A DNA stretch of 64,000 nucleotides, taken from a candidate division WOR-3 bacterium. Its GTDB lineage: Bacteria > Hydrothermota > Tepidihabitantia > Tepidihabitantales > Tepidihabitantaceae. Positions 1,583-51,211 of the stretch are shown piece after piece. The first letter of the stretch is position 1. Every line of letters begins with the position of its first letter. The position numbers and the translations under genes are program-made. The notes under the pieces are model-generated. The model had not been told where the DNA came from, did no database searches, and was given only the letters and a program-made list of their open reading frames with translations. The stretch is taken from contig VGIR01000001.1 in assembly GCA_016867815.1 (NCBI GenBank), forward strand, positions 1 to 64,000. The letters run 5' to 3'.

Positions 1583-1610
1583 TTGACTTCGATACTGCGG
1601 TACTTACCAT
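1583..1610 (+). promoter_or_regulatory. promoter of the sensor kinase/PorX operon
   Basis: TTGACT (1583-1588), a 16-bp spacer and TACCAT (1605-1610). The predicted transcript begins about 12 bases before the TTG start codon and carries no Shine-Dalgarno sequence. Confidence 0.55.
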
Positions 1611-1629: not shown

Positions 1630-2898
1630 TTGAACAAGTCTGGATTCAGATTCGGCGCCCGGCTGCTGCAGCTATACTTCACAATCGGGCTGCTGGCCTT
1701 GGCCGGTGTCTGGTTCTTCTACTCCCAGTATCTGCTTATCCGGCTGTCGCGGTCCTGGCAGGGGTATGTTTCGACCCTTTCGGCGCAGCTTGAGAGCGAC
1801 ACCCAGCTGCGATCGCGCATATATGCGAAGTTCATGTCCCGGGCGACCGAACCTTCCGAAGGCAGTTCACCGGAGCTCGACATTATCTTTGACGAGATCA
1901 TCAGGAAGATCGACTTCCCGGTGATAATAACCGACGCCAAGGGAAAGCCAACTTCATGGCGCAACCTGCCGGTTGAGACCCCTGACTCGGCGCGACTCAT
2001 CGGGCTAATGTACGTGCTGGACAGCGAGCACGAGCCGGTCCCGCTGGCAGTCGCCGAAGGCGACTCCCTGCGCAAGCTCGGTGAGATCCACTATGGGTTG
2101 TCGTCGTCGGCCGCGACGCTCCGCAAAGTGAACGCCAGCCTCGTGGGTTCGGTTCGCTCGCTGACCGTCTTCTCGGTGCTGCAGGTGCTGCTCCTGGTCG
2201 GATTCGTGATTGTCGGGATCTGGGGGATTCTCTCCTACAAACGTCGGGAGCAGGAGCACATCTGGACCGCCCTGGCCAAGGAGACCGCGCACCAGATGGC
2301 GACACCGCTCTCATCCTTCAGCGCCTGGCTGGATGTGCTTCGCCAGCGCGCACCGGACGTCACAGTGGAGATGGAGCAGGACCTGATAAGAATGAAGGAG
2401 GTCCTTGATCGTTTCAGCCGGATCGGCCTGCCGCCGGAACTCACCCCGCACCGGGTGGGCGAGGCGATCGAGCGATCGGTCGCATTCGTCCGGCGCAGAG
2501 CACCCAAGACCGTGGCATTCGTCGCCGAGGTCGTTGACGACGCGACGGTTCGCGTCGACGACGTTCTCTTCTCATGGATGCTGGAGAACCTGCTCAAGAA
2601 CAGCGTTGACGCAATCGGCACGAAGCTGGGTGAAGTCAGGGTTCGCTGCGCGCTTTCCGCGGACCGGAGGTTTCTGGAAATCGAGGTTACCGATTCCGGC
2701 GAAGGGGTTAAGACCGAACGGCTCTTCGAGCCGGGCGTCACGACCAAGAAGTATGGCTGGGGCGTTGGCCTGACTCTGGCTAAGAGAATCGTCGAGAGCT
2801 ATCACCAGGGAAAGCTGCTGCTGAAGGAATCCCAACCCGGGAGGACGGTCTTCTCAATATTCCTGCCGGTGAATCGCGGTGCGGAGAAGGAGTCCTAG
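1630..2898 (+). CDS. membrane sensor histidine kinase, PorY-like
   Basis: A two-component sensor kinase of 422 residues in the inner membrane. One membrane segment lies near residues 12-34 and a second near 176-200, with a short periplasmic domain between them. The phosphoacceptor helix is recognisable (ETAHQMATPLSSF, His about residue 221), followed by a HATPase_c domain with an N box (ENLLKNSVDAI), a G1 box (DSGEGV) and a G2 box (GWGVGLTLAKRIV). The start is TTG; no in-frame ATG or GTG lies before the first membrane segment. The next gene is a PorX-like response regulator 156 bases downstream, so it is probably the cognate PorY that controls T9SS expression. The stimulus cannot be read from the sequence. 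Confidence 0.88.
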   Translation: MNKSGFRFGARLLQLYFTIGLLALAGVWFFYSQYLLIRLSRSWQGYVSTLSAQLESDTQLRSRIYAKFMSRATEPSEGSSPELDIIFDEIIRKIDFPVIITDAKGKPTSWRNLPVETPDSARLIGLMYVLDSEHEPVPLAVAEGDSLRKLGEIHYGLSSSAATLRKVNASLVGSVRSLTVFSVLQVLLLVGFVIVGIWGILSYKRREQEHIWTALAKETAHQMATPLSSFSAWLDVLRQRAPDVTVEMEQDLIRMKEVLDRFSRIGLPPELTPHRVGEAIERSVAFVRRRAPKTVAFVAEVVDDATVRVDDVLFSWMLENLLKNSVDAIGTKLGEVRVRCALSADRRFLEIEVTDSGEGVKTERLFEPGVTTKKYGWGVGLTLAKRIVESYHQGKLLLKESQPGRTVFSIFLPVNRGAEKES

Positions 2899-2942
2899 CG
2901 CATCTCGCCGTCCTGGTCACAGAACCAACGCAGAGACTGAAG

Positions 2943-3021
2943 CCACGAAAGCACGAAAGGCACGAAGGATGTCTGAACGGAATACTTCGGATCGTCTCTT
3001 CCGGTTTCGTGTCTTCGTGGC
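2943..3021. repeat. CCACGAAG-type imperfect palindrome
   Basis: The left arm from 2943 carries CCACGAA, GCACGAA and GCACGAAG units. The right arm at 3001-3020 carries the complementary TTTCGTG and CTTCGTGG units. Related elements lie at 38068, 39374, 40286 and 51717. It fills the gap between kinase and regulator genes. Confidence 0.7.
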
Positions 3022-3054
3022 CATCTGCCTGGGAGTCGATGAGAAAGGACAGTC

Positions 3055-4566
3055 GTGAAGATACTCTGGATTGACGACGAGATAGACATGTTCCGGCCAT
3101 TCGTCTACGCGTTGAAGGACAAGGGCTATGAAGTCGAGACCGCGACCAACGGTCCGGACGGAATCGAGTTGGCCAAGGCTCGCGACTTCGACCTGGTACT
3201 GCTGGACGAGATGATGACCGGCATGGACGGGCTCGAGGTCTTACGTCGTCTGAAGCAGCTTGACCCGAGCCTGCTGGTGGCGATGGTCACCAAGTCCGAC
3301 CAGGAGGCGCTGATAGACGAAGCGTTCGGCAAGCTGGTGGATGACTTCGTCATCAAGCCGTTCACACCGGTGCAGTTGCTTGCGGTCATCAAGCGCCTGC
3401 TCGAGAAGAAACAGCTGGTGTCGAACCGAATCGCGCAGGAGTACATGGCGGCCATGAACCAGCAGCACGACCTCGGCTCGTGGGACGGTTGGGTCAGCTA
3501 CTACCGTCTGCTCGGAAACTGGCAGCGTCTCCTGGGGAGATACGCCGATACCGGCATGCGGGACGTAGAGATGGATCGCCGCCGCGACGCTGACGGAGAG
3601 TTCAACCGTTTCGTCGAGGGTGAGTACCAGGACTGGCTCGCGGGCCGGGGACCAGTCCTGTCGCACCAAGTTGTGGATCGGTTCGTCCGGCAGCATTGGA
3701 CCAGCCCGAATACCTTTCTCATCGTTCTGGACTCAATGCGCGCCGACCAATGGGATGCCATCGTCCCGCTGCTTGCCGACTACTTTGACGTCAGCAGTGA
3801 CTACTACTGCTCAATACTCCCGACCGCCACTCCGTACTCCCGGAACGCCATCTTCTCGGGCCTGCTGCCGCTCGAGATCCAGCGCCGCTACCCGAAGTAC
3901 TGGGTTTCCGAGGAAACCGGGCAGAACCGGTTCGAATCAGAGCTGCTGGCTGAGCAGTTGCGCCGGATGAGGTTCGATGGCCGCCATGCCTACCTGAAGA
4001 TCTCTCACGGCGACGAACTCGAAAATGCGCGAGCCGCGCTGCTCGACAAGAACGTCCGGTTTGCGGCCGTGGTGATCAACTTCCTCGACCTGCTCATCCA
4101 TTCGATCAAGACCACGAGGCTGCTGGATGAGATCATCCCGGACGACGCCGCGCTCGTCGGTATGACCCGGGTCTGGTTCTCATCCTCACCGGTGTTTGAG
4201 TTCCTGAAGACCCTGGCGAGGCGTGACTGCACGGTCATAGTCACGAGCGACCACGGTTTCATCCGGGTCAAACGCCCCACGCTCATCTACGGTTCCCGCG
4301 AGATATCGGCCAACCTAAGGTACAAACACGGCGCGGCAATCCGGGTCGAGGGCCGAGATGCTATCCTGCTCAACAACCCCGAGACCTTCATGCTGCCGTC
4401 CGACCACCTCGGTACGAAGTTCGCCATCGCCAAGAACGACTACTACTTCATCTATCCGACCAAGCCGCGCGAGTACGAGAAGGCCTACAAATTCACCTTT
4501 CAACACGGCGGCGTTTCGCTGGAAGAGATGGTCGTGCCCATCGCAACCCTCAAACCGCGTCGATAG
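3055..4566 (+). CDS. porX: response regulator with PglZ domain, PorX-like T9SS regulator
   Basis: A cytoplasmic response regulator of 503 residues. An N-terminal receiver domain (residues 1-120) has the acidic pair DD at 7-8, the phosphoacceptor Asp at about 51 (LVLLDEMM) and the conserved Lys in VIKPF. A helical linker follows, then a PglZ domain of the alkaline phosphatase superfamily (about 215-500) with metal-site motifs LDSMRADQW and TSDHGF. This receiver-PglZ architecture and length are those of PorX, the regulator of type IX secretion in Bacteroidota; the PglZ part there is a phosphodiesterase. The start is GTG with a GAAAGGA site seven bases upstream. The adjacent kinase is the expected partner. 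No T9SS structural genes are in the window, but several T9SS-type cargo genes are. Confidence 0.88.
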   Translation: MKILWIDDEIDMFRPFVYALKDKGYEVETATNGPDGIELAKARDFDLVLLDEMMTGMDGLEVLRRLKQLDPSLLVAMVTKSDQEALIDEAFGKLVDDFVIKPFTPVQLLAVIKRLLEKKQLVSNRIAQEYMAAMNQQHDLGSWDGWVSYYRLLGNWQRLLGRYADTGMRDVEMDRRRDADGEFNRFVEGEYQDWLAGRGPVLSHQVVDRFVRQHWTSPNTFLIVLDSMRADQWDAIVPLLADYFDVSSDYYCSILPTATPYSRNAIFSGLLPLEIQRRYPKYWVSEETGQNRFESELLAEQLRRMRFDGRHAYLKISHGDELENARAALLDKNVRFAAVVINFLDLLIHSIKTTRLLDEIIPDDAALVGMTRVWFSSSPVFEFLKTLARRDCTVIVTSDHGFIRVKRPTLIYGSREISANLRYKHGAAIRVEGRDAILLNNPETFMLPSDHLGTKFAIAKNDYYFIYPTKPREYEKAYKFTFQHGGVSLEEMVVPIATLKPRR

Positions 4567-5895: not shown

Positions 5896-8800
5896 CTACT
5901 GTTTGGCGGGCTGGATAAGCGGCAGGGCGGTGAAGATGAGGAAGCTTGAGACCTTCCTGCCCGGCCATAGCCTGCTGCACGCCTTCTCGTAGTGCTTGAG
6001 CTGGCCGTCGTAGTACTTGCGGGCAAGTTCGGGGATGTCTTTCTTCCTGACGTCAAAGGTCTTGTAGTCGTAGAGCCGGACTTCGGTCTCGGTGACTATC
6101 ACGCGGTCGATGCGGCCGGTGAAGGTCGTGCCGGCATCGGTGTACATGATGGGGAGTTCGGCGTGAGACGAGGGCTGGGGCCTGATGACCTCCCAGACAG
6201 CGACTTCAGATTGCAGATTCGAGATTGCAGATTGCAGATTGGTGAACAAGGAGAGGTCCAAGCCTGCGAGGCGCAGGAGTCGTTGGATCTCAGCGGTGAG
6301 CGGCTGGGGAGCGGTGGTCAGCGTCCCGTTCGATATCTCCTCGAGTAGTCTGTGAATGAGGTCGCCGAGGCCGACCGAGTCTTCTCCGAAGCGTTGGAAG
6401 TCGATGGCGAGGTTGCGGGTGACGGAGCGGACGGAAGGAAGGGGTCTAGGGTTCAAGGGGGCAAGGGTTCCAGGGGCGGAGGGACGGAGAGGACTGAGCT
6501 TGCGGCTTGCGGCTTGTGGCTTGGGGCCTTCCTTGACCACGGGTGCGGCGGGCTGCACTTCGGGGATGTCGTCGGGCGTGATGCACGCGACGCCCGGGAG
6601 TGAGGGTTCGAGCGCGAAGCCATGCTCCGTTTCGTGCAGGCCTAGGCTCTGGACCAGCCATTCGAGCCGGGTCTTCTTCTGCGCCCGCTCGTTCCACGTA
6701 CCGGTCAGGAACAGGGCGTCGCGCGCGCGGGTGCAGGCGACGTAGAATACCCGCTTTTCCTCTTCGTACTCCTTGGCCACGAATTCCCGGTGCAGGGGAT
6801 GCTCGCGCCGTATGGCCGCGTCGGGTATGTAGGAGACCTGCACTTCGTCCTGGCTGACTTCCTCGACTACCAGCTTGTCACCGGACGAGCCGGCCGAGCG
6901 GATGCCCGCGTCGAGCCCGGGCAGGAATACGACCGGGAACTGGAGGCCCTTGGCCGCGTGGACCGTGAGGACCTGCACGCCGGATACGTCGTCGGCGCGG
7001 ACGTCGGCCTTGGCTTCGTCGGCTCCGGCCTGTTCTAGCGCGTTCAGGAGGCGGAGCGGGTGGTTGCCGTCCGCTTCCATATCCTCGATGATGGTGAGGA
7101 ACTTGCGGACGTTCGCCTCGCGCTGGGGTTCCCAGAACCGGGCCCAGACCTTGCGTTCGTCGAGGGCGTGGGAGAGGATGCGCGCGAGCGGCTCTTTGTG
7201 GACGCGGGCGAGCCAGTTATCGAGCGCGGCGACCGGTGCGGCAAGGTCGGGCAGGGCCGAGGAGCGGATGCGGTCCCACAGGAACTGGCGAACGTCGAGC
7301 GCCGAACTCCGAACGTCGAACGCGGACCCGCAATTGGCGAAGAAGAGGTCGCGTTCGGGAACGTCGAAGAACGGGCCGCGCAGGGTTACGTAGAGCGAGA
7401 CGTCGTCGGTCGGGTCGGCGAGGAAGCTGAGCAGGCTGCGCAGGTAGCGGACTTCGTCTTCTTCGTAGAACCCGGAGCCGCCGAGGACCAGGAACTGGAT
7501 GCCGGCGTCGCGCAGGGTCTGCTCGATGGCCGGGAGCTGGTTGCGGGAGCGGATGAGGATGGCGATGTCCCTGAGCGCGCACGCGCGGCCGACCTCCACG
7601 TCGCCTTCCTTGTCGTAGACGGTCAGGGGTCGGGGGTCAGGGGGCAAGGGTTGGGGTGAGGAAACGATGGAGAGGATGCGCTTGGCGATGAGCGCGGCTT
7701 CGAGCTTGCGGCGTTCCGCGACGTTCTCGTCCGAGCGCGCGAGTATCAGCTCGACCCGGCCCGGGTTGTCGTTCTTCCGTTCGCGGGTGAACGGCGCGTA
7801 GCGGGTCTGCCACGGACAGGGACTAGGGGCTGGGGATTGGGGGCTAGGAGAGGAAGCAGAAGGATGAAGGATGAGGGATGAAGGATGGAGCCCAGATGTG
7901 GAAGGAGGAGCGGAGGGTGAAGGCGGAATCTCGGAGGTCGGACTCATGAGCCGGGAGAACAGGGCGTTGTTGAAGTCGATGATGGACTGGAGGCTGCGGA
8001 AGTTCCTCGTCAGGGTCTCGCGCTCCAACTGGTCCTTGCCTACCCACAGTTCGATCTTGTCCGCGGCGGTGGCGAAGACTTCGACTTGGGCGTCGCGGAA
8101 CATGTATATCGACTGTTTTTCGTCGCCGACGATGAAGATGGTCGGCTTGATGCTGCGGTCCGTCTTGGCGCCTTCACCCGAGCGCCATTCCTCGGTCAGC
8201 TTGTCGATGATGCCCCACTGGAGGAAGCTGGTGTCCTGAAACTCGTCGACGAGGATGTGGTCGGTGTGCTCGTCGAACGCGTGGAGGATGTTCTGCCATT
8301 CCTCTTCGTTGCGCAGGACCTGCCATGCGAGGTACTCCATGTCGTCGTAGTCCACGAAGGCGGCGGCGCGCTTGGCCTGCGTGTAATGGGCGAGGAACCG
8401 CTGTTGGAACATCGCGAGGGCGCGGCCGAACTCGGCCTCCCACACCGCGGTGGCGACGAGGTCGCGGTATGCGCACATCTCCTGGTTCCACGCCTGCTCT
8501 TTCTCGTCGCAGCCGCGGATGCGCGGGGTGCCGGAGCCGGTGCGATAGACGTCGGCGTGCTCTTCGAGGAGTCGGAATACCTCGTCGAGCCCTGACCCTT
8601 CGAGCGAACGCGGGAACAGGCGCGAGTAGCCGTCGATCCTGGCCCGGCCGATCGGGTTGGCGCGGAGGCGCGACGCGGCTTCGGCGATGCCGGCTTCCGC
8701 TCCGACCATCCGTCCGCGCTGGACCGCGACCCGCTTGGCGAACAGGCTGTCCAGCAGCTCTGACAGCTTGCCCCAGCCCTGCATCTGGTTGCGGGTGACC

Positions 8801-9258
8801 AAGTCCACCAATTCCGCGTAGTCCTTCGAGCTGCGCTCGTCCTCAGCGACCCTCATCAGCACGTCGTACTTGGCGCTCTCCCACGCGGTCATGGTGTCGG
8901 ACAGGACGTCCACGCGCGGGTCGAGGTCGAGTAGGGGCGCGAAGCGCCTGACCAGCGAGAGGCAGAATGAGTGGATGGTCGAGATGCGCAGTTTGAGCAC
9001 GTCGTCGCGCAGGACCTTGTGCAGGGCCGGGTCTTCCTTTTCGAGACGGCCGAATATGCGCTCTTTCATCTCGGCGGCGGCCTTCTCGGTGAATGTCAAA
9101 GTGAGTATCCGCTCGGGCGCGACGCCGGACATGAGCAGGTCGATGTAGCGCTGGCTCAGCGCGTGGGTCTTGCCGGAGCCGGCCGGGGCGAAGACGACCC
9201 TGTGCTTCAAGGGAGTGTCGAAGCCCGAATTCCTAATGACGGATGGGGAGCCAGGCAC
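5896..9258 (-). CDS. addA: AddA-type helicase-nuclease (UvrD family with PD-(D/E)XK domain)
   Basis: This is the likely ATP-dependent helicase-nuclease subunit for double-strand break resection, 1120 residues. An SF1A helicase core starts with Walker A APAGSGKTHAL (about 24-34) and LTLTFTEKAAAEM. DEFQDT gives motif II and VGDEKQSIYMFRDA motif III. The last 100 residues form a PD-(D/E)XK nuclease (GRIDRV, then LYDYKTFDV). The GTG start directly follows the addB stop, so translation is coupled. Four stretches look like dispersed repeat DNA read in frame: about residues 443-483 (Pro/Ser-rich), 531-546, 908-945 and 1005-1018. They probably form surface loops. The residues PSVIRNSGF near the N-terminus also match a dispersed repeat. 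Confidence 0.9.
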   Translation of the reverse strand: MPGSPSVIRNSGFDTPLKHRVVFAPAGSGKTHALSQRYIDLLMSGVAPERILTLTFTEKAAAEMKERIFGRLEKEDPALHKVLRDDVLKLRISTIHSFCLSLVRRFAPLLDLDPRVDVLSDTMTAWESAKYDVLMRVAEDERSSKDYAELVDLVTRNQMQGWGKLSELLDSLFAKRVAVQRGRMVGAEAGIAEAASRLRANPIGRARIDGYSRLFPRSLEGSGLDEVFRLLEEHADVYRTGSGTPRIRGCDEKEQAWNQEMCAYRDLVATAVWEAEFGRALAMFQQRFLAHYTQAKRAAAFVDYDDMEYLAWQVLRNEEEWQNILHAFDEHTDHILVDEFQDTSFLQWGIIDKLTEEWRSGEGAKTDRSIKPTIFIVGDEKQSIYMFRDAQVEVFATAADKIELWVGKDQLERETLTRNFRSLQSIIDFNNALFSRLMSPTSEIPPSPSAPPSTSGLHPSSLILHPSASSPSPQSPAPSPCPWQTRYAPFTRERKNDNPGRVELILARSDENVAERRKLEAALIAKRILSIVSSPQPLPPDPRPLTVYDKEGDVEVGRACALRDIAILIRSRNQLPAIEQTLRDAGIQFLVLGGSGFYEEDEVRYLRSLLSFLADPTDDVSLYVTLRGPFFDVPERDLFFANCGSAFDVRSSALDVRQFLWDRIRSSALPDLAAPVAALDNWLARVHKEPLARILSHALDERKVWARFWEPQREANVRKFLTIIEDMEADGNHPLRLLNALEQAGADEAKADVRADDVSGVQVLTVHAAKGLQFPVVFLPGLDAGIRSAGSSGDKLVVEEVSQDEVQVSYIPDAAIRREHPLHREFVAKEYEEEKRVFYVACTRARDALFLTGTWNERAQKKTRLEWLVQSLGLHETEHGFALEPSLPGVACITPDDIPEVQPAAPVVKEGPKPQAASRKLSPLRPSAPGTLAPLNPRPLPSVRSVTRNLAIDFQRFGEDSVGLGDLIHRLLEEISNGTLTTAPQPLTAEIQRLLRLAGLDLSLFTNLQSAISNLQSEVAVWEVIRPQPSSHAELPIMYTDAGTTFTGRIDRVIVTETEVRLYDYKTFDVRKKDIPELARKYYDGQLKHYEKACSRLWPGRKVSSFLIFTALPLIQPAKQ
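6203..6241. repeat. in-gene CAGATTGCAGATT repeat (addA)
   Basis: Tandem degenerate units of GCAGATT/CGAGATT, read in frame in addA as NLQSAISNLQS. The same family recurs in non-coding DNA near 42577 and 44072. Confidence 0.75.
6425..6530. repeat. in-gene low-complexity repeat block (addA)
   Basis: Degenerate units (GGGTCTAGGG, TTGCGGCTTG, TGCGGCTTGTGG) lie inside addA and encode a Pro/Ser/Arg-rich loop. The TTGCGGCTTG units recur in intergenic DNA at 40818 and 46900. Confidence 0.7.
7622..7905. repeat. two in-gene repeat blocks (addA)
   Basis: Block 7622-7665 consists of GGGGTCAGGG-like units. Block 7815-7905 consists of GGGGCTGGGGATT and GGATGAAGGATGAGG units. Both are read in frame and encode Pro/Ser-rich segments (for example SPSPQSPAPSP) between helicase motifs. 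Normal helicase sequence lies between the two blocks. Confidence 0.7.
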
Positions 9259-12192
9259 CTAGGATTCCCTGGTTTCGCGGAGGCCGCAGGTGTGGCCGAG
9301 GCCGCAGTACTCGCAGGCGTTGTCGTCGTCGGGTAGGGCCGGGAACCGGCCCGAGCGTATCTTGCCGACCACTCCGACCGCGTTGGCGACCGCGGCCTCG
9401 ATGAGCTGCCTGACGTCGTACTTCTTGCCCGCGAACCAGTAAACGCCCGGGTCGCGCAGCCCATAGATGCCGAAGTTGTCCGCCTGCGCCTGCTTGTTGC
9501 CGTGCTCGTACATCCACGCGTAGAGCGGGAGCTGGAGGTGGTTGCCTTCGAGCACCGCCTTGCCGCCGTAGATGCGCGGGGCGCCGGTCTTGTAGTCAAG
9601 GACGCGGAACAGCTTGCCCGCGGTGTCCACGCGGTCGGCACGGCCCTTCAGATTGACATCCTTGCCCAGCCTGCCCTTGAGCTTGAGCTCGGCCCGGCCC
9701 GGCATGAACCCGCCTTCACGCAACTCTTCCTCGGTGCGGACGATCTCGGGCAGCAGCCCGGCAAAGACGCGGCGGGCAACCTCGGTCCAGAATGGGGGCA
9801 GGTCCACTTCTTTGAGCGTGGCGTCGAGCGCCTTGCGCGCGGCTGGCTCCAGCTTGTTGACGGCCACTGGCCCGTCCGCGTACAGCTTCTCCATCACGAG
9901 GTGGATGACGAGACCCCACTGGCGCGCGTCGATGTCGTAGCGCGGTTCCGTGGGCGTCTCGATGCCGAGCACGTGGTCGATGTAGAACTCGTACGGGCAG
10001 CGCTGGTAGTTCTCCAGCCGCGTGACCGATACCGGCCGCGCCGGGCCGAAGCTCTTCGCCAGTTCGGCCAGTACCTCCTTGTCGTCTTTGAAGTCCACCT
10101 CATGCGCGGCCTCGGCGAACGGCTTGCCTGCCGCCCTGCCCTGCGCTACCTGTGCTTCGGCGTCTGAGAAGAAGGCGTCCGGCCGTTTCACCTTCTCGGG
10201 CTTGAAGGCGAGGAACGGCGAGGGGAGGACCGGCTGGCCGTCCCGCGAGGAGTGGAAACTCAGGACCGGCGGCGTGGGCGAGGACTCGAGGGTGCGGCGG
10301 AAGTGGAACCGCTCGTGGTCGCGGTGCCAGTCCACGTCGGGCATCCCTAGCGCCTTACGCACGCGGTCGGGCAGAATCGGGTCGGGTGAGTACGGCGAGG
10401 GCAGGTTTTTCTCGGTCAGGCCGCAGAAGAAGAGCTTCGGTGGGTGGATGCCCAGCGTTTCGGTCATGTCCACGACCGTGACGCCGGACGGGTCGTGGTT
10501 TGTGGTCCGCATCGAGTTTTCGACGAGGTAGGTCAGGGTCTTGATGAGCCGGGAGCGCGGCTCCTCGCGGCCGCCGAACTGGGTCCCGAAGTCGGCCAGC
10601 GTATCGAGGACGTCGTACAGCGACTTGCGGTCAGCGAGCAGGTCGGCTTCGGTTCCAACGGCCGGGTCTACATTGCTCAGGAAGCCGGCGCGGCCGAGCA
10701 ACTGCTTCAGGTTGTGCGCGAACGCGCCGGGCGTGTCCTTGGCCTTGATAGTCTCGTCCAGCAGGCTAAGCGCGTGCCGGACCCGGGACTGGATGTCGAG
10801 CAGGAACTTCCGTTCCTCAGCGTCGAGTTCGTACTCCTCGGTTGCCTGCACGCCGTCGGCGATACGCCACCAGTCGCGGCGACCCTTGATGATGCGGCCT
10901 TTGCGCGAGTAGTGGTTGAGCGCGGCGGCGCAGCGGTCGCGGGCCGCCGAGTCTTTGTCCGCTTCGAGCGCGAGCAGGCCGGGCAGGTACGGCGAACCGA
11001 ATGCGGCGGCGGTGGCGATGCGCTCATATCCGGTGTCGTGGGCGCGGAGCAACTCGAGCACCGCTACTACCGGCGGCGAAATGGCGAGGCTGTTCTCCGG
11101 GTATACGGTCACGTCTACTCCGTATGCCTCGAACACGCGCTTGATGAGCGGGGCGAAGTCAGCCAGCCTGGGAACCGCGACGAACGTCTCTCGCGCGCCG
11201 TCGCCTTGGGTGATGATGGCGCGGCAGACGGCTTTGACTTCTTCCTCGATATCCGGGTACTCGTGGAACGATGGCAATACCGGCGCCGGTTCGGGCAGGT
11301 GCTCGATCTCGAACCGGCCGCAGGACAAGATGAACTCCGCGAACTTGCCTGGCAGCGCGTAGTCGGGGTCTTTCGGGTCGCCCGCGTGGCCGAGCACGAG
11401 GCACGACTCCGACTTCTCGATGAGCGCCCGGAGGAGGTCGGATTCGAGCCGGTTGGGTGCGACGAAGCTGTCGAGCACCAGTACGCCCGGCAGGTCGGCC
11501 CTGGCCACGAGCCGCGCTGCCTCGGCCATGATTCCCTCGTCGTCGATCCAGTCGAGCCGGGCCAGCTCGGACTCGTAGCGGTCCAGGCAGTCGAGGCACT
11601 CGAGCAGGCGAGCCAGTGGTTTTGGAAAGCCCTCGAGCAGTCGCTCCACTCGCTGGCGCAGGGTTGCGCGCTCCGTGGCTGGGACGTAGCGCCGGACCTC
11701 GGTGATGAACCCGGCGACGGCGCGGGAGTAGCCGATGGAGGGCAAGGGATGAGGGACTTGGGAGGAAGGAGCAAAGGCGCGCTTCCCGCCCGCGGCTTGA
11801 GGATTGGGGCTAGCGGTTTCCGCAGCCAGTAGTTGCTGGACAAAGAGGGGCTTGATTTCGGGCAGAAGGCGCCGGGCTGTGCCAAGGCGGTCGTGGATGT
11901 CGCGCGCGAGCTGGGTCAGGCTCGCGAAGCGCGGTGGGACTACCGCGTCCTTGCTGAGGCGGCCGAGCAGTTCGGCCTCGGCCAGTCGGAGCCGGCGCGG
12001 GTTGGGGCAGAGGTAGAGGATCTCGGCGGGCACGACGCCGGTCCCGAGGGCTGCATCGAGCAACCGCTCGCCGACGTCGTGCACACCGAACGGCGCGAGA
12101 AAGAGCTTTCTCACCTGTGGCCAGGCCGGATCGAAGCCGGCCGGTTCGGGATCAGGACTTGGGTTTGGCTTTGGCCGCCAGCTTGCGCGCAT
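9259..12192 (-). CDS. addB: AddB-type helicase-like nuclease subunit
   Basis: Partner of AddA, 977 residues in the longest frame. It resembles the inactivated helicase subunit AddB. A C-terminal PD-(D/E)XK nuclease has LKGRADRVD and FRVLDYKTGAPR. Cysteines for a 4Fe-4S cluster are split between YQRCPYEFY and CEYCGLGHTC, as in AddB. A helicase-type Walker A is not apparent. The start is uncertain: the ATG at 12192 overlaps the 36-residue gene by 41 bases, and the GTG at 12114 (VRKLFLAPFG) suits the family better, but neither has a clear ribosome site. Residues about 124-152 (NPQAAGGKRAFAPSSQ) come from a dispersed-repeat block at 11735-11820. Confidence 0.85.
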   Translation of the reverse strand: MRASWRPKPNPSPDPEPAGFDPAWPQVRKLFLAPFGVHDVGERLLDAALGTGVVPAEILYLCPNPRRLRLAEAELLGRLSKDAVVPPRFASLTQLARDIHDRLGTARRLLPEIKPLFVQQLLAAETASPNPQAAGGKRAFAPSSQVPHPLPSIGYSRAVAGFITEVRRYVPATERATLRQRVERLLEGFPKPLARLLECLDCLDRYESELARLDWIDDEGIMAEAARLVARADLPGVLVLDSFVAPNRLESDLLRALIEKSESCLVLGHAGDPKDPDYALPGKFAEFILSCGRFEIEHLPEPAPVLPSFHEYPDIEEEVKAVCRAIITQGDGARETFVAVPRLADFAPLIKRVFEAYGVDVTVYPENSLAISPPVVAVLELLRAHDTGYERIATAAAFGSPYLPGLLALEADKDSAARDRCAAALNHYSRKGRIIKGRRDWWRIADGVQATEEYELDAEERKFLLDIQSRVRHALSLLDETIKAKDTPGAFAHNLKQLLGRAGFLSNVDPAVGTEADLLADRKSLYDVLDTLADFGTQFGGREEPRSRLIKTLTYLVENSMRTTNHDPSGVTVVDMTETLGIHPPKLFFCGLTEKNLPSPYSPDPILPDRVRKALGMPDVDWHRDHERFHFRRTLESSPTPPVLSFHSSRDGQPVLPSPFLAFKPEKVKRPDAFFSDAEAQVAQGRAAGKPFAEAAHEVDFKDDKEVLAELAKSFGPARPVSVTRLENYQRCPYEFYIDHVLGIETPTEPRYDIDARQWGLVIHLVMEKLYADGPVAVNKLEPAARKALDATLKEVDLPPFWTEVARRVFAGLLPEIVRTEEELREGGFMPGRAELKLKGRLGKDVNLKGRADRVDTAGKLFRVLDYKTGAPRIYGGKAVLEGNHLQLPLYAWMYEHGNKQAQADNFGIYGLRDPGVYWFAGKKYDVRQLIEAAVANAVGVVGKIRSGRFPALPDDDNACEYCGLGHTCGLRETRES
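11735..11820. repeat. in-gene repeat block (addB)
   Basis: Units such as GGGATGAGGGACTTGGGAGG, GCGGCTTGAGG and ATTGGGGCTAG resemble the intergenic repeats near 46740-46780. They are read in frame within addB as a Pro/Ser/Ala-rich segment. Confidence 0.65.
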
Positions 12193-23767: not shown

Positions 23768-26539
23768 CTACTGCGACAACACCAGCTTCACGATTTGTGT
23801 ATAACTTGCGGTCTGCATTCGGCAGAAGTACGTCCCTGGCTTCACGGGCGATCCACGCTCATCGGTACCATTCCATCGGGCGTGGTGAAACCCTGCCCGC
23901 AGTTCAGACGCATTCAGAGTGCGGACGAGTGCTCCTGCCGCGTCGTACACCTGCAACAGGACGCGCGAGCTCCTCGGCAACGCAAATGGTACGTGGATTC
24001 GGCCCACAAAGGGATTGGGACGAGGGGAGCCAAGGGAGTACTCCCGAGGAATCACGGAGATTTCGTCGGGACTCTCGATTCCCGGCGCTGGTCTTACTAC
24101 CACCTGTCGCTGTGTGAAATCGTTGGAGGGATTGCTGTCTCCCGCCAGCATGGTGGAGCACCGGACAAGATGGGTGCCGACCTGGTTGGCAGTCCATTGT
24201 GCGAATTCGGCAGTATCGATGCTACCGATGGGCAGGATCATTACGGTTTCGCGGCTGAAGAAGGAGCCGACGGCAAAACGGATGCGGAAGCTGTCTCTGG
24301 CACCGCCGAAGTTCGTGATGACCGCGCGAGGCGCTATGACGGAGCCCGAGTCAACGGTGTCGGGCGGGGCGAGAATTGCCGAAGCGCCGACATCGTGACG
24401 CGGTCGGCGCACGACCAGCAGGGCGATAGCCGTGTCGTTGGCTGGGCCATCATCCAGTATGGCTGAGAATGCCTTCATGAGGTAGGTGTCTTGTGGAGCG
24501 GCCAACCAGGAAGCGAAAGACACATTTGTGCTCTCCTGCGGGCTCAGGGTGATGGTGTCCGCGTCCTCGTACACCTGCGCCACCTTCCCGGCAGTGAGCG
24601 ATCGCGCCCTCCTTCTAGTGTCCCCGCAGGCGGCCCGGGCTGCTGTCTCGATCCGGAACCAGACCGGGAACGTCTGCGTTGTGGTGCCAAGGTTCTTGAA
24701 ACGGGCTGTCGGCGTGACACTGGTTCCTGAATCGAGCGGCCCTACCGGCGCTACTATCTGCCTGCAGGCGACATCGATCGGAATCACCTGCACGGTGTCG
24801 GTGAAGAAGTCGTTGGACGGAACGGTGTCGCCCTCGACCTCTATGCTGCAGCGTACCTGCACGAGCCCGGTCGGGTGTGCGGCCCATGGTTTGAAGGAAA
24901 CGACCGCCGACTGCCCCGGAGCCGGGCCGTCGAAGACCTGGATTGTATCGCCGTAGGGCAGGCCGATGTACATAAACGCGTTGACCGGAGGAATGACATC
25001 ACCGTTGTTCTTGATGCGGGCGCGCGGAATCACTGTGTCGTAGTGATCAAAGGAGCCCTGCGGAGCGACGATTGCGTTCACTTCCATTTCCGGACGGCCG
25101 TAGCGGAGCCGGGCGGTGTAGATGCTGGTCCACCCGCCAGTGTGCGAGACCTCGCCCGATACAAAGACATGGTCGGTGTCGGAAGCGCAGATGGTCGTTC
25201 CGAAGTCGATCATCTGGTCGTTGCCATCGAAGCGATAGGTCCAGAGTGTATCTTTGCTGGCAGCGTTGGTCGCGGTGTAGCCGAGAACGATGATGTCGTT
25301 GCCACTTCGGCCAGCGACATAGACACGTCCCTTGCGGTAGAATACCGAGTACCCCCGGTCGTCGGCAGTGGAGCCGAACGTGGCGCCGGCCGTGCCCCAG
25401 CGCGACGTCAGAGTGCTGTTGAACTTCATGGTCGACACCTGTTCATTCAGGGGATACGGATACGCCAGGGTACCGGTTACGTAGACGTTCTGTGTGGACG
25501 AGTCGTCGAGCGTGACTGAGAAAGCATAGTCGTCGCCGTGCTCCGATGCAACGTTGAGGCTGCGATAGTTTAGTCGGCTGCCGGATGGGCTGTAGCGGAC
25601 AACGGCATAGTTGTAACCCTGAGAGGTTGAGCCATTGTCTTGGTAGTCGAAACCAACAGCGTAGATGTCACCGTTCTTTGCCACCTTGACGTCGAAAGCG
25701 ACGTCATCGTCGCCGTTGTCCATTGTTGTCGTCGGGTTGTGGTAGACGGCGGCCCACGACCGAACTCCCGAGGGAGTGAACCTCATGGTCCACCACTCCA
25801 GCATCCAGTCAAAATCCGATCCGTGGCCGGTGGTCACGATGCCGCTGTCCGGGCACGCGGCCAACGAAACAGCCGCATTGTCATAGAGGCTGTAGTCGTC
25901 GAAGTAGTCGGGGTGGAGGTCCTTTCCCCGGTTCCTCCGGGCGAACGCCGTTGTGTCGAGGACATAGGTTCGCGTCCAGAGCGTATCGCCGCTGGATGGG
26001 TTGATGCGAGCCACCATGTATCCGGTCAGGAATCCGTACCCGGAGTCGGAACCGCAGATGTAGACATCACCCGACTTGCCGATGGCAATGTCGAAGGCTT
26101 CGTCATCGCCACCGAGCCCCGAGTATCTGTGCCAGAGCTCCACGCCGTTCGAGTCATACTTGGCCCAGGCGGCGTCGTCGTGGCCAGTGTTGTTCGCCCT
26201 GCCCGCGATGTAGATGTTGCCGGCCGAGTCGACGGCAACGGCCTGCGCAATGTCCCCGGAACTGGTGCCGGTGCCGCTGAAACCGCTCACCCAGGCACGG
26301 GTTCCATCCGGCCGGTACTTCATCACCACCAAATCAAGCCCGTTGGGATTGCCGGCCAGCTCGCCGGCTCCGACGACAAGAAGGTTGCCGGTCAGGGTGT
26401 CAAGGTAGCTGTCTGTCGCTTCGTTGAACTGGCTCTGACTGGGGCCGACATAGTGCTTGATCCAGGCCGGGTTGACGCCTCCGGCAGCAGCAACCGCCGC
26501 GAGTAGCGATAGGACCGCGAATAACCTGCAAGTGCGCAT
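23768..26539 (-). CDS. large secreted beta-propeller protein with CARDB-like domains and T9SS C-terminal domain
   Basis: An exported cargo protein of 923 residues. The start is ATG 26539, four bases after AGGAGG; the TTG at 26542 is too close to that site. A signal peptide (LFAVLSLLAAVAAAG) leads into a propeller with SBBP-like repeats (VAVDSAGNIYIAGRA, IGKSGDVYICGSD, VKVAKNGDIYAVGFD). Three Ig-like CARDB-type repeats follow from about 500 (IVAPQGSFDHYDTVIPRARI, IVAPVGPLDSGTSVTPTARF, ILAPPDTVDSGSVIAPRAVI). The C-terminal 90 residues form a FlgD-like T9SS type A module with SPRPNPF, LQVYDAAGALVRTL and KPGTYFCRM, ending VKLVLSQ. It is likely anchored or released at the cell surface. The ligand is unknown. 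Confidence 0.88.
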   Translation of the reverse strand: MRTCRLFAVLSLLAAVAAAGGVNPAWIKHYVGPSQSQFNEATDSYLDTLTGNLLVVGAGELAGNPNGLDLVVMKYRPDGTRAWVSGFSGTGTSSGDIAQAVAVDSAGNIYIAGRANNTGHDDAAWAKYDSNGVELWHRYSGLGGDDEAFDIAIGKSGDVYICGSDSGYGFLTGYMVARINPSSGDTLWTRTYVLDTTAFARRNRGKDLHPDYFDDYSLYDNAAVSLAACPDSGIVTTGHGSDFDWMLEWWTMRFTPSGVRSWAAVYHNPTTTMDNGDDDVAFDVKVAKNGDIYAVGFDYQDNGSTSQGYNYAVVRYSPSGSRLNYRSLNVASEHGDDYAFSVTLDDSSTQNVYVTGTLAYPYPLNEQVSTMKFNSTLTSRWGTAGATFGSTADDRGYSVFYRKGRVYVAGRSGNDIIVLGYTATNAASKDTLWTYRFDGNDQMIDFGTTICASDTDHVFVSGEVSHTGGWTSIYTARLRYGRPEMEVNAIVAPQGSFDHYDTVIPRARIKNNGDVIPPVNAFMYIGLPYGDTIQVFDGPAPGQSAVVSFKPWAAHPTGLVQVRCSIEVEGDTVPSNDFFTDTVQVIPIDVACRQIVAPVGPLDSGTSVTPTARFKNLGTTTQTFPVWFRIETAARAACGDTRRRARSLTAGKVAQVYEDADTITLSPQESTNVSFASWLAAPQDTYLMKAFSAILDDGPANDTAIALLVVRRPRHDVGASAILAPPDTVDSGSVIAPRAVITNFGGARDSFRIRFAVGSFFSRETVMILPIGSIDTAEFAQWTANQVGTHLVRCSTMLAGDSNPSNDFTQRQVVVRPAPGIESPDEISVIPREYSLGSPRPNPFVGRIHVPFALPRSSRVLLQVYDAAGALVRTLNASELRAGFHHARWNGTDERGSPVKPGTYFCRMQTASYTQIVKLVLSQ

Positions 26540-26666
26540 CAAGCCTCCTACTAGCCGGTAAGGTTCACGCCGGAGTCAAGCTCCCTTGGGTGTTGTTGTG
26601 CGGCACCTTGGGGCCTGTGCGACCCGGGCACAATAGACCACAGGGTCGCGGATTCCGGCCTGAGAA

Positions 26667-44339: not shown

Positions 44340-46661
44340 TTAGTGCTGGACGATGACCTTATCTTTGGTCCTGTTTCGGCCCACTTCGAGGCTGACGAAA
44401 TAGACCCCGGCCGGCACCGATTTCAGGTCGACGTTGAGCGTCGCAGACCGGGCAACCGACAGCAGTCGGATCAGCCTGCCGGCCACGTCGTGCACGGTCA
44501 GGCTGCCCGTCTGGCCGGGCGGAATCTGGAGTCGCACCTTGACCCCGCTTCTGGCGGGATTGCCGAGTACGGACAGCATCGGCCCCAGGACTCCGGGTTT
44601 CTGTTCCTCGATACTATATGGGTCGTCGCGGTAGACGTAGAGCCTGCTTGTGGTCGCCTTGAACACACGGTTGTCGATGGCGTCCCACGCCATGCTGCGA
44701 GAATTGATGGGGTCAAGCCGGGTCACGACCGAGTCGTAGCGACAATCCACGACCGCGCCGTATCTGAGGTAGAGCTTGTCGTTCCGGTCGTCCATCAGGC
44801 CTGAGTAGGTGAATCCGGCATCGATCGTATCGACGATTGCGCCCAGGGCACAGTCGAAGACCAGAGTCTGGCTGCTGCCGCACATGTAGAGCTTGCCCAG
44901 CCGTCGGTTCAGGAACATGGCGTCGACGATCCAGGGCAGGATCTCGGATGAGATGACCGAGTCCCCCAGCACATCGATGGTGAACATCATCGTCGGCGAC
45001 TGGTCGATGTAATAGAGCAGGCCGAGGTCGAGATTCAAGGTCATCTTACCACGATAGGAGCCGCCCACAAGGTCGAAGGTCTTGACCACAGAGTCGCCCA
45101 CCGGGTCAAGGGCGCGTACAGTCGGCTTGTCCCCGCAGGCAAAGAAAACTCGGTTGGAGCGCGGGTCGTAGACCGCGCAAGGAACGTGGTCGTCCAGCTC
45201 GAAGAGCGGGATCGCGGTGTCCCGCAGGCAGTCGTAGGCGTATACCGAGTCGGCATCGGAGCCGTCGAAGATGTACATCTTGTTGAGGTACGGGACCATC
45301 ACCGGCCTGGGGCGGTCGATGGCGGCCATCGCCAGGGTCCTGACCAGGCTGTCAGCGTTGCAGTCGATGATTCGGAGCGTGCCGTAGTCAGCCACGTAGA
45401 GACGGTTGAGGGCCGGGTTCAGCACCGGCTGGGCGTATGTGCCGTAGACCCCGCCGGGAATGTGCTTCGGCGTACCGAATGTGCTGTCAAGGATGAGGAC
45501 CTCATCGTGCCCAGTGCAGAGCAGGTAGAGCTTGTTGCCGGCCGGGTTGTGGACCATCTGCCGGGGTAGATAGGCAGCGTAGTTCACAGTGCCCACGACC
45601 GAGTCGACCGCGGCGTCGATGGCGAAGGCGAGATCGCCCGGGGATGTCACTCCGTATACTTCATTGCTGTTTGGCCAAAATGCAAGGGCCACGATGTCGT
45701 GAGTGGGTACGGTTGGGATGGGAACCACAGCCGCAAGGTGGTCGTTCGAGTCCGTCACAAGCACCTCGGTAGGATCGTACCAGCCCAGATAGGTACTTCC
45801 GTTCGCCGTATTGACCGCGACGGACGAGAGCGATCCTGCAGCTAGGGTTCGTGTCGAATCGGTTTGGCAATCTATCACGCACAACGAGTCAGTGACCAGA
45901 CACGCCAACCGGTCAGTGAATGGGTTGTAGACCAGCGCCAGAAGCTCATCCAGCTCGAGCGCCGGTGTCACGCCGATTACCTTCAGCGAATCAGTGCTCA
46001 CTATGGTCAGCCCGGTGTCCCCGGCCACGCAGTAGAGCTTGTGCGAAACGGTGCTCAGTGCCAGCTTTGATACGTCGTCGTTTCCGACCGGAACACTCGC
46101 CAGCAAAGTATCGGCGGTGCAGTCGACCACGCTGAGTGAATTCGACTGGGTTCCGACGTACAGCCGATTCCAGGCTGAATCCCATAGCAGAGCCGAGACG
46201 TCGGCTCCTATTCCAACGGCGGTCAGCACGGAATCGCCGTCGGGGTCGAACACGAAGAGCGTCTCCGAGGACGTCGACCCCAGGTAGAGCCGGTCGGACG
46301 CCGGGCTGTATGCGAGTGAACTCGGTCTGAAGGGCAGAGCAGTCACGCTCAGGACCGTGTCCGCAGCGGCATCGAGTATGACTGCCGAATCCCGCAACAC
46401 ATACCCCTTGCCGCTCGGCGGACAGAAAATCACCAAGCCCGTCGAGCCGGGGCCGCGAATCTTCTCCATGGTTACGGGGCTGAATACCTGTATGGGGCTG
46501 GACTCGATGTAGACGTTGCCGGATATCGGGTTGACGACGATGCCGCCGGTCAGGCTGATGCCGCCGAGGGTGTCGCCGATCACGACTTGGCGCTCCAGCC
46601 ACTGGCCGGAGCAAATGGATGTAACCGCGATGACGAAAACGAGCAGTGCGCTTCTCTTCAT
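44340..46661 (-). CDS. secreted YVTN/beta-propeller protein with T9SS C-terminal domain
   Basis: An exported cargo protein of 773 residues. A signal peptide (SALLVFVIAVTSICSGQ) is followed by a long array of propeller strands in which N-x(1-3)-LY and ATDSV-type blades recur (SDRLYLGSTSSETLFVFDP, WNRLYVGTQSNSLSVVDC, NGSTYLGWYD, NKLYLLCTGHDEVLILDS). The C-terminal 85 residues are a T9SS type A module: LTVHDVAGRLIRLLSV, SVPAGVYFVSLEVG, ending KVIVQH. The ATG has AAGGAGG six bases upstream. It is probably a surface or released protein with unknown ligand. Confidence 0.88.
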   Translation of the reverse strand: MKRSALLVFVIAVTSICSGQWLERQVVIGDTLGGISLTGGIVVNPISGNVYIESSPIQVFSPVTMEKIRGPGSTGLVIFCPPSGKGYVLRDSAVILDAAADTVLSVTALPFRPSSLAYSPASDRLYLGSTSSETLFVFDPDGDSVLTAVGIGADVSALLWDSAWNRLYVGTQSNSLSVVDCTADTLLASVPVGNDDVSKLALSTVSHKLYCVAGDTGLTIVSTDSLKVIGVTPALELDELLALVYNPFTDRLACLVTDSLCVIDCQTDSTRTLAAGSLSSVAVNTANGSTYLGWYDPTEVLVTDSNDHLAAVVPIPTVPTHDIVALAFWPNSNEVYGVTSPGDLAFAIDAAVDSVVGTVNYAAYLPRQMVHNPAGNKLYLLCTGHDEVLILDSTFGTPKHIPGGVYGTYAQPVLNPALNRLYVADYGTLRIIDCNADSLVRTLAMAAIDRPRPVMVPYLNKMYIFDGSDADSVYAYDCLRDTAIPLFELDDHVPCAVYDPRSNRVFFACGDKPTVRALDPVGDSVVKTFDLVGGSYRGKMTLNLDLGLLYYIDQSPTMMFTIDVLGDSVISSEILPWIVDAMFLNRRLGKLYMCGSSQTLVFDCALGAIVDTIDAGFTYSGLMDDRNDKLYLRYGAVVDCRYDSVVTRLDPINSRSMAWDAIDNRVFKATTSRLYVYRDDPYSIEEQKPGVLGPMLSVLGNPARSGVKVRLQIPPGQTGSLTVHDVAGRLIRLLSVARSATLNVDLKSVPAGVYFVSLEVGRNRTKDKVIVQH

Positions 46662-48478: not shown

Positions 48479-50563
48479 TTATGGCATGCTGTCCAGGAAC
48501 GTCTTGCCTTGTGTCTTCCATTCCTCGGTCAGCCTCGCTGACCTCTGGTTCAGGGCGCGGAGTTCTTGCTTCATGTGTTGTATGGTCTCCTCACGGTGCA
48601 GGTATCTGATCTTGCGTTCCGCCATCAGATATGCGTCCCGGTACTTGCCAAGGAAGTTGTACATGGCCGTTCGGATGAACTCATATATAGCGTACAGTAG
48701 GTTGTCTGGCGAGCGGTGCTTTCCGTCCTGCACCTCCTTGGCGTAGCCGCCGAAGTCGGGTGACTCCGCTAGCCGAGCATAGCAGGGACTCTTAAGAAGT
48801 CTCTGGGCGAGGTTACCATCGATAGGGCCAAACTTCCACACGTACACCGTTGCGTAGAGCCCGACCAAGACTTCCTTCATGTTGGCGAGCATCTGATTCA
48901 CCAGGAACTCGTCATCAGACTTCAGCTTTTCATCCACCTTGTCGGGGTCAAACCCTCCGCCTTCTGATGGCAGGCCTAGCCCGAGTCGTTCGATCGCCAG
49001 CTCCCGGTTCAGGCGATTAGACAACGTATATCTCTTGACGAACTGGCTGGTTAGGTAGCTCAACAGGTACATAGCTGCCGTAGGAGTTGCGACCTGGTAG
49101 TCGTCTTCCTTGTACTTGTATTGCATCGCCGGGTCAGCGATATCCTTCCAAGTTGCCGCGAGTGGCACTCTCTTGAAGATCCGGTCGTAGTGAGGTTCTC
49201 CATCTTCAAACAGCTTGGCTCTCTCGGATGCCAGGGACGAGAAGCCCGAGAATCCGTACCAAGCCCTGGCCACTTCTTCATTATCCGCTATGCGCTTGCG
49301 GTTACCAGCGTCTTCGAACACCTTCTTCCTGAAGCTCTGCGGCGGAAAGTGCCAGAGGCTGTCGCTTTCCCCGTCCTTTCTTTGATAGAACCACGCAGGG
49401 CTAAGGGCCTTGAACTGCGCCGTGATGGACTTCTGAACGCCTTCGTTCGACTTCAGGTTCCGCGCTGTCATCGGATTCTGGTTGTTCGTGCTTACGACCA
49501 AGTCGCCTATGAAGCTCTGGTCATCTGTCTTGATAAGCCGTACTTGCGTGCAACAGTGCTTGCGGAATCCCTCTTGTTCCTCAGGGGACATGCTCCGGTG
49601 AGCTCGGTATATCGATAGTACGGTCTGGCAGCCATTTATTACTTGAGGTTTCGAAACCGTCACCACACGCCCCTTCTGAGATGATTCTGACACCTTGAAT
49701 GAGCTGCAGGTTATCGTAACGCCGTTGTTGAGGTGGTGAAAGTTGCGCTGCGACTTGGCGTGCTTGAGGCTGTCGATGATCTTCTGATTTACTGGAGACT
49801 GCCTCAGTTCGTGCCGAACGTTGAGGTCGAACAGGGCGAATCGGTTTCTTTCGAAGGCATCCAGCAGGTCAACTGAAGGCGCTAGCAGGTAGGCCCAATC
49901 GCTCCGCGAGAGAATCTCTCCTTCGGAGTAGTGGAGCGTCACCTCCTGAGGGAGAATTGCCTCAGAGAACGGTGCCGTGAGCTCGGCGGTGATTCTGTCC
50001 CAGAGACGCAACTCTATGCTGACACGATCGTTGGACCTGTAGGCCTTCAGAAGTCGTTCATACACATCCAGACCATCCCTGTTGAGGTTGCTGAACAGGC
50101 TGAGCACGAACCGCACATGCGTACGCTCCGGCTCTAAGGCCATGTCTTGGTGGAACTTCGAACGGAGCTCGCGGACCGCCGCGTTTCCCGAGTTTGGCTC
50201 CGAGTCACTCAGCATGTACTCGATGGTCTCCCTTAGCTCTAGGACCGCCTGAGAATCTAGCAGCATGGGAGACGGGTTCCTCTTCAGTGTCGCGACTCCC
50301 GGCATCTTACACTGGTAGACCGCATAGTCGGTATCACGTTTCACGTAGAAATCAACGCCCTTGTCGCCTTTGGCGTCCGTGAACGTGAAGTACAGCGGGT
50401 CGGTCGTCTCGAATAGGTCGGCCACGAGGAAGTCGAATGCGTGATGCTCATTGGATACGTCGTCAGCGTACGTATCCATGCAATCGCTCAGTCTAGACTC
50501 CAGCAGCTGCACGGCTTCCGCGTAGCTAGCTGCCTTCAGCGCGGCATTCGCGAGTTGTCTCAT
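48479..50563 (-). CDS. AIPR-family protein (abortive infection phage resistance)
   Basis: A protein of 694 residues matching the AIPR family (abortive phage resistance). The core motifs are NFHHLNNGVTITCSSF (about 273-288) and PQVINGCQTVLSIYRAH (about 302-318), followed by VVSTNNQNPMTARNL. The N-terminus carries a restriction-endonuclease-like segment GDKGVDFYVKRDTDYAVYQC followed by K (about 66-88), with the acidic and QxK residues of a PD-(D/E)XK fold. The ATG at 50563 has AAAGGAGG seven bases upstream. Codons are less GC-rich at third positions than in the housekeeping genes nearby, which suggests horizontal transfer. Downstream genes on the same strand are unknown proteins, so this may be a multi-gene defence operon. 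Confidence 0.82.
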   Translation of the reverse strand: MRQLANAALKAASYAEAVQLLESRLSDCMDTYADDVSNEHHAFDFLVADLFETTDPLYFTFTDAKGDKGVDFYVKRDTDYAVYQCKMPGVATLKRNPSPMLLDSQAVLELRETIEYMLSDSEPNSGNAAVRELRSKFHQDMALEPERTHVRFVLSLFSNLNRDGLDVYERLLKAYRSNDRVSIELRLWDRITAELTAPFSEAILPQEVTLHYSEGEILSRSDWAYLLAPSVDLLDAFERNRFALFDLNVRHELRQSPVNQKIIDSLKHAKSQRNFHHLNNGVTITCSSFKVSESSQKGRVVTVSKPQVINGCQTVLSIYRAHRSMSPEEQEGFRKHCCTQVRLIKTDDQSFIGDLVVSTNNQNPMTARNLKSNEGVQKSITAQFKALSPAWFYQRKDGESDSLWHFPPQSFRKKVFEDAGNRKRIADNEEVARAWYGFSGFSSLASERAKLFEDGEPHYDRIFKRVPLAATWKDIADPAMQYKYKEDDYQVATPTAAMYLLSYLTSQFVKRYTLSNRLNRELAIERLGLGLPSEGGGFDPDKVDEKLKSDDEFLVNQMLANMKEVLVGLYATVYVWKFGPIDGNLAQRLLKSPCYARLAESPDFGGYAKEVQDGKHRSPDNLLYAIYEFIRTAMYNFLGKYRDAYLMAERKIRYLHREETIQHMKQELRALNQRSARLTEEWKTQGKTFLDSMP

Positions 50564-50875
50564 GGAACCTCCTTTCGGGTATCTGTTGCTTCTCACTCAA
50601 CCCAATTACGTCAAGGTCGCTGGTTTGTATTCCGTCGTGGGGATGGAAGCGGACATGGCTCTCATGCCAGGGGCAGAAACGGGGACGCATTACTTATCTC
50701 ACTTCCGTCAATGCTGGGGTGAATCCGACATCCATCGTTCCTGAGGATAGTCATTACAGACCCGCAGTCAAGCCGAGAGCCACAGCCGTTGTCCGGTTCT
50801 GCAGGCGGCAGGAACCGAGGTCCTGTCAAATGTTGTGGAAATAGCTGGGCGGTGTCTTGCGGTCTCGGACAGGGC
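50564..50875. other. gap upstream of the AIPR gene and minisatellite
   Basis: It contains the AIPR ribosome site and a weak minus-strand promoter candidate (TTGGGT, 16 bp, GATACC). The rest holds no gene I can support. A TTG-started open frame from 50789 runs into the minisatellite. Confidence 0.5.
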
Positions 50876-51160
50876 CAGATGCCCTCCCAGATACCGGGAG
50901 AGATGCCCTCCCAGATGCCCTCCCAGATACCGAGGGAGATGCCCTCCCAGATGCCGGGGGAGATGCGGGCAGAGTTCCCCTCCGAGATGCTAGGGGAGAT
51001 TCCCACCGGGATACGGGGAGAGTACCCTGCCCAGTGCCTGAGTCCGATTCCCGGAGAGATGCCCTCCCAGATGCCGGGAGGGATGCCGGGACAGATGCCC
51101 AGCCAGATGCACGGAGATATGCCCCCGGATATGCAGGGAGAGTCTCCGGGGGAGTATCCC
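50876..51160 (+). repeat. 12-bp minisatellite, alternating CTCCCAG and GGGAGAG units
   Basis: About 24 degenerate units of 12 bp, such as ATGCCCTCCCAG and ATGCCGGGAGAG. The CTCCC and GGGAG words are complementary, so neighbouring units can pair as short hairpins. In the plus frame that includes it (open 50789-51211) every unit reads as a tetrapeptide of the MPSQ/MPGE type. First positions vary among Met, Ile, Phe and Tyr, and fourth positions among Gln, Glu and Asp. Confidence 0.85.
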
Positions 51161-51211
51161 CCCCAGCGACCCCTGGACGTGGAATGCGTGACTTACGCGA
51201 TGTCGCTTTGA
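50879..51211 (+). CDS. possible MP(S/G)(Q/E) tetrapeptide-repeat protein
   Basis: If translated, the frame gives about 110 residues. It consists almost only of tetrapeptides of hydrophobic-Pro-small-Gln/Glu pattern (MPSQIPGEMPSQMPSQIPRE), then a short unique tail PLDVECVTYAMSL. Variation between units keeps the residue classes, which would fit selection on a protein. It could equally reflect the DNA repeat itself, because other frames are open too. No ribosome site is seen. It lies just upstream of the sigma-factor cluster on the same strand. Confidence 0.3.
   Translation: MPSQIPGEMPSQMPSQIPREMPSQMPGEMRAEFPSEMLGEIPTGIRGEYPAQCLSPIPGEMPSQMPGGMPGQMPSQMHGDMPPDMQGESPGEYPPQRPLDVECVTYAMSL

Follow-up and report, generated by a model that had tools for sequence, protein, structure and literature searches.

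PorX and PorY in described systems

PorX and PorY have been termed "orphan" proteins because their genes lie apart (PMC11320123, PMC8050853). In P. gingivalis, the genes for PorX (PGN_1019) and PorY (PGN_2001) are separated by about 1000 genes (PMC5005315; also described as apart in PMC8050853), and the F. johnsoniae PorX and PorY locus tags (Fjoh_2906 and Fjoh_1592) are likewise far apart (PMC5445135). The pairing itself has been doubted on the grounds that porY deletion does not mimic porX deletion (PMC11320123, PMC8050853). PorX has phosphodiesterase activity and co-occurs with T9SS genes (PMC10951265), and its structures have no DNA-binding fold (PMC11320123). DNA binding by PorX is disputed, with reports against it (PMC5005315) and for it, at the porT promoter (PMC8050853). 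Published PorY is a 395-aa protein with helices at residues 14 to 36 and 149 to 173 and a histidine at position 193 (PMC5005315).

We analyzed a 64,000-nucleotide stretch of DNA (the window) in which, unlike in P. gingivalis and F. johnsoniae, the two genes are adjacent; they share a conserved promoter and belong to a phylum other than Bacteroidota. An earlier note on this DNA had described a two-helix sensor kinase and a receiver-PglZ regulator in one operon, and we recovered both on the same strand (422 and 503 aa); its statement that the genes lie apart in Porphyromonas and Flavobacterium agrees with the published accounts and locus tags. The features of the locus are as follows.

1 to 127, strand not given: edge of a high-copy repeat found at about 20 contig ends in the genome
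94 to 1515, minus strand: divergent BNR-repeat exported protein, with its C-terminal sorting domain lost at the contig edge
1544 to 1572, minus strand: predicted sigma70-like promoter of the divergent gene (TTGACA-17-TAGCAT), common to congener G114 only
1583 to 1610, plus strand: predicted sigma70-like promoter of the kinase-regulator operon (TTGACT-16-TACCAT), conserved in relatives
1630 to 2898, plus strand: PorY-like sensor histidine kinase with two predicted membrane helices, a putative extracytoplasmic PAS/Cache-like domain, H221, and HATPase
2928 to 3048, strand not given: dispersed hairpin element that lies between the kinase and regulator genes of the window species only
3055 to 4566, plus strand: PorX by sequence, with a receiver, a helical linker, and a PglZ/alkaline-phosphatase-like domain (residue roles from PMC10951265 and PMC11320123)

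Both proteins are of known kinds. As far as the open-access literature reaches (subscription papers and preprints being outside the scope), two points are new: that the genes form an operon outside Bacteroidota and that the pair occurs across this phylum. In that literature, we found neither porXY linkage nor PorXY from this phylum reported. The linkage is relevant to a question that the literature states as open, the two proteins being described there as orphans (PMC11320123). Retention of the operon in several phyla provides independent genomic support for the PorX-PorY pairing, and linked pairs offer natural minimal systems for biochemistry.

Identity of the regulator and the kinase

On sequence grounds, the regulator is PorX. 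It consists of a Pfam Response_reg domain followed by a PglZ domain and passed the NCBI PorX equivalog model NF052313 (540.7 bits; cut-off, 300). Its best solved relative was F. johnsoniae PorX (8ted, 8p6f), which aligned end to end (residues 2 to 501; 368 bits), as did the solved P. gingivalis PorX (349 bits), a protein with the same full-length receiver-PglZ layout and the same catalytic and phosphorylation residues. The receiver phosphorylation residues (D8, E9, D51, T79, and K101) and the two-zinc/catalytic residues (D226, T259, D345, H349, D399, H400, and H484) were invariant among 27 PorX proteins of the phylum, and the latter set was unchanged even in PorX members at 30% identity. The window protein has a phenylalanine (F98) where F. 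johnsoniae PorX has its switch tyrosine (Y101). A Pfam domain search detected no DNA-binding domain in the regulator. In the host genome, which was searched family by family, the regulator was the sole PglZ protein found, and PorX-like full-length matches were present in most genomes of the phylum.

The kinase starts with TTG at 1630 and has hydrophobic stretches at about residues 12 to 37 and 183 to 201 (i.e., the two predicted membrane helices), which enclose an extracytoplasmic domain of about residues 38 to 182. The phosphoacceptor H221 sits in the motif LAKETAHQMATP. Layout, size, and histidine position agree with published PorY, so the kinase is PorY-like, as the earlier note had proposed; P. 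gingivalis PorY, likewise with two helices, resembles it in length and layout, although the window kinase has the longer extracytoplasmic domain of the two. Because the AlphaFold model of this sensor domain had a pLDDT of 76.7 and the PAS/Cache-type matches were weak (best E value, 0.018), we assign it, with moderate confidence, to a fold class only, a PAS/Cache-like arrangement.

A kinase family profile was built from 28 kinases, all from porX loci. Of 27 genomes searched with it, 25 had a single full-length copy, and one other had a partial copy (229 aa; E value, 5e-59). The full-length copies had best E values of 1e-90 to 1e-130, while the next best kinase-domain matches were at about 1e-38 or weaker. 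The Bacteroidota copy of this family is mostly 382 to 413 aa long, with the histidine at 184 to 210, and is located away from porX. The genome with the PorX nearest to that of P. gingivalis (G255; 79% identical) encodes a single copy, on a contig other than that of porX. Family, copy number, and layout thus strongly indicate that the kinase is a PorY ortholog, a match made by these features and not by direct alignment with PGN_2001 or Fjoh_1592.

At two Latescibacteria loci (L101 and L110), the kinase upstream of porX is about 600 aa long, and its enlarged extracytoplasmic region looks repeated.

Linkage of the kinase and porX across genomes

We gathered 120 porX loci, 112 of which were scorable for kinase adjacency; the sample is uneven because the 80 named loci are the best matches to the window PorX. 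In 41 of the 112 loci, the kinase gene immediately preceded porX, and in the other 71 it did not. The linked loci comprised 29 of the own-phylum set, two further WOR-3, three Zixibacteria, two Latescibacteria, one Gemmatimonadota, one Ignavibacterium, and three further bacteria. Linkage was found in most of the phylum of the window, candidate division WOR-3 (placed via named relatives), while nine own-phylum loci had PorX with no kinase adjacent. No kinase adjoined porX in any of the 39 scorable Bacteroidota loci or in five Cloacimonadota and four Calditrichota loci.

On the unrooted PorX tree, the linkage label required six changes, versus 33 with shuffled labels, and was thus clustered. The kinase tree follows the same groups, and kinase and PorX distances were correlated (r = 0.80 over 64 pairs), as shared species history would also produce. 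That the linkage is ancestral is plausible, but no more than that on an unrooted tree in which the genes lie apart in some deep WOR-3 families. Since published work calls the two proteins orphans with genes apart, their linkage here counts as real evidence that they pair. The earlier note had drawn this conclusion from one locus, and conservation in several phyla upholds it. Neither of the two outcomes that the note had named as fatal to its assignment appeared: the receiver that neighbors the kinase is PorX and not a different one, and the regulator does not group with BREX-type PglZ proteins.

Three WOR-3 loci with a nonadjacent kinase (L064, L066, and L068) carry a small exported lamin-tail-like protein directly upstream of porX, ending in SWGKIKAIF or a close variant.

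Promoters, operon gap, and contig edge

The plus-strand promoter consists of TTGACT (1583 to 1588) and TACCAT (1605 to 1610), and the minus-strand promoter consists of TTGACA (1572 to 1567) and TAGCAT, ending at 1544. The opposed -35 boxes are exactly 10 bases apart in the window, as previously noted, and 15 apart in G114. Upstream of the kinase start, TTGAC-N16/17-TAnnnT occurred within 60 bp in all 14 loci, against an expectation of 0.005 per locus, so that the kinase promoter is not a chance match, and in five congeners its hexamers hardly vary.

Kinase and regulator are separated by 156 bp in the window, a gap of this length because the hairpin element (CCACGAAAGCACGAAA ... TTTCGTGTCTTCGTGG) lies in it. 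Four congeners have the element absent and a gap of about 18 to 36 bp, and the two genes overlap in many other loci. We do not claim the intergenic fold as an attenuator; it is a dispersed element with 33 matches in the genome.

The sequence at positions 1 to 127 recurs with 100% identity where about 20 further contigs of the genome end. The assembly thus breaks at the edge of a repeat that is present in high copy number and is probably a mobile element. The divergent frame runs into it and, as assembled, has lost about 32 C-terminal residues relative to the G114 copy. Its tail scored 15.9 bits with FlgD_ig (cut-off, 27), and the sorting tail is under Pfam thresholds in both the window species and G114. 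The T9SS cargo gene that the earlier note had placed beside the pair is thus not intact as assembled.

Probable T9SS in the host and proposed mechanism

The host genome encodes the SprA/Sov translocon (3.0e-20) and has 111 matches to type A sorting tails (TIGR04183), from which we consider a T9SS likely present; SprA was found in 31 of 31 genomes of relatives. GldL (PorL) is a known contact of PorX, and GldM (PorM) is its motor partner. The GldL/GldM models had no match in the phylum; as they also miss most non-Bacteroidota and G255, whose PorX is the nearest to that of P. gingivalis, we do not claim that the motor is absent. The window encodes two further exported proteins, one with a T9SS-type sorting tail (Por_Secre_tail) at 44340 to 46661 and one with a FlgD_ig tail at 23768 to 26542, both on the minus strand.

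What the sequences show (the families of both proteins, unbroken sets of catalytic and phosphotransfer residues, a linkage and a promoter that are both conserved, and a genome with SprA and numerous sorting tails) is best explained by a PorY/PorX-type cognate pair in which phosphotransfer would lead to T9SS control, a reading that we regard as probable. The extracytoplasmic PAS/Cache-like domain would sense an envelope signal, and the kinase would autophosphorylate on H221 and transfer the phosphate to PorX at D51. If the solved PorX proteins are a guide, the phosphorylated regulator may dimerize, and the dimer may couple to a two-zinc phosphodiesterase, the activity being presumed here. The output in this host would be control of T9SS gene expression or activity.

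An extension of this reading, which we offer tentatively and consider rather doubtful, is that a linked porY-porX was ancestral and that the genes came apart later in Bacteroidota, giving the orphan layout. In WOR-3, the same switch would control a T9SS with no recognizable GldL/GldM motor proteins, so that PorX would need a target other than PorL.

Alternative explanations

A pair genuinely descended from PorX and PorY may instead have an output other than T9SS, with PorX cleaving linear or cyclic oligonucleotides as a phosphodiesterase under phosphorylation control and so tuning a general nucleotide signal. The invariance of the two-zinc residues at 30% identity, the reported activity (PMC10951265), the silence of the GldL/GldM models in the phylum, and a regulator free of a DNA-binding domain all fit this idea; however, SprA and the many sorting tails in the genome, together with the published co-occurrence of PorX with T9SS genes (PMC10951265), make it unlikely.

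The earlier note had favored direct control of the divergent cargo gene (i.e., PorX binding to the 1516 to 1629 intergenic region). The closely opposed promoters, both kept in G114, and the reported binding to the porT promoter (PMC8050853) are compatible with this, as are, post hoc, other sorting-tail genes upstream of the kinase at three loci (L043, L044, and L045). However, G114 is the only congener in which the cargo gene faces the kinase as it does in the window. In G116 and G117, a different sequence takes its place while the kinase promoter is retained, and the contig of G118 ends at this point; the neighbor is thus kept in one of three checkable congeners. The altered -35 spacing in G114, the truncation of the gene in the window, the failure of others to find direct PorX binding (PMC5005315), and PorX structures that have no DNA-binding fold (PMC11320123) also count against direct control, which we consider highly improbable. 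The divergent secreted-protein gene is only a local neighbor of the pair.

A BREX-type PglZ carrying an additional receiver, next to an unrelated kinase, can be dismissed as a reading of the pair: the regulator has the PglZ fold in common with BREX PglZ proteins and matches their models weakly, but the BREX-3 PglZ model (NF033449) reached 80.4 bits against a cut-off of 250 and aligned to the PglZ part only, leaving the receiver uncovered, whereas the PorX model was passed, the regulator did not group with BREX PglZ proteins, and the linkage is conserved across phyla.

Other features of the window

An AddAB-like pair occupies 5896 to 12192 on the minus strand, comprising a UvrD-type helicase with a PD-(D/E)XK nuclease domain (5896 to 9258) and a large frame (9259 to 12192). 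An AIPR family protein (Pfam PF10592; E value, 3.7e-36), of a family often linked to phage defense, is encoded at 48479 to 50596. At 50841 to 51166, 12-bp tandem repeats adjoin an open frame of 693 aa that matched nothing in Pfam.
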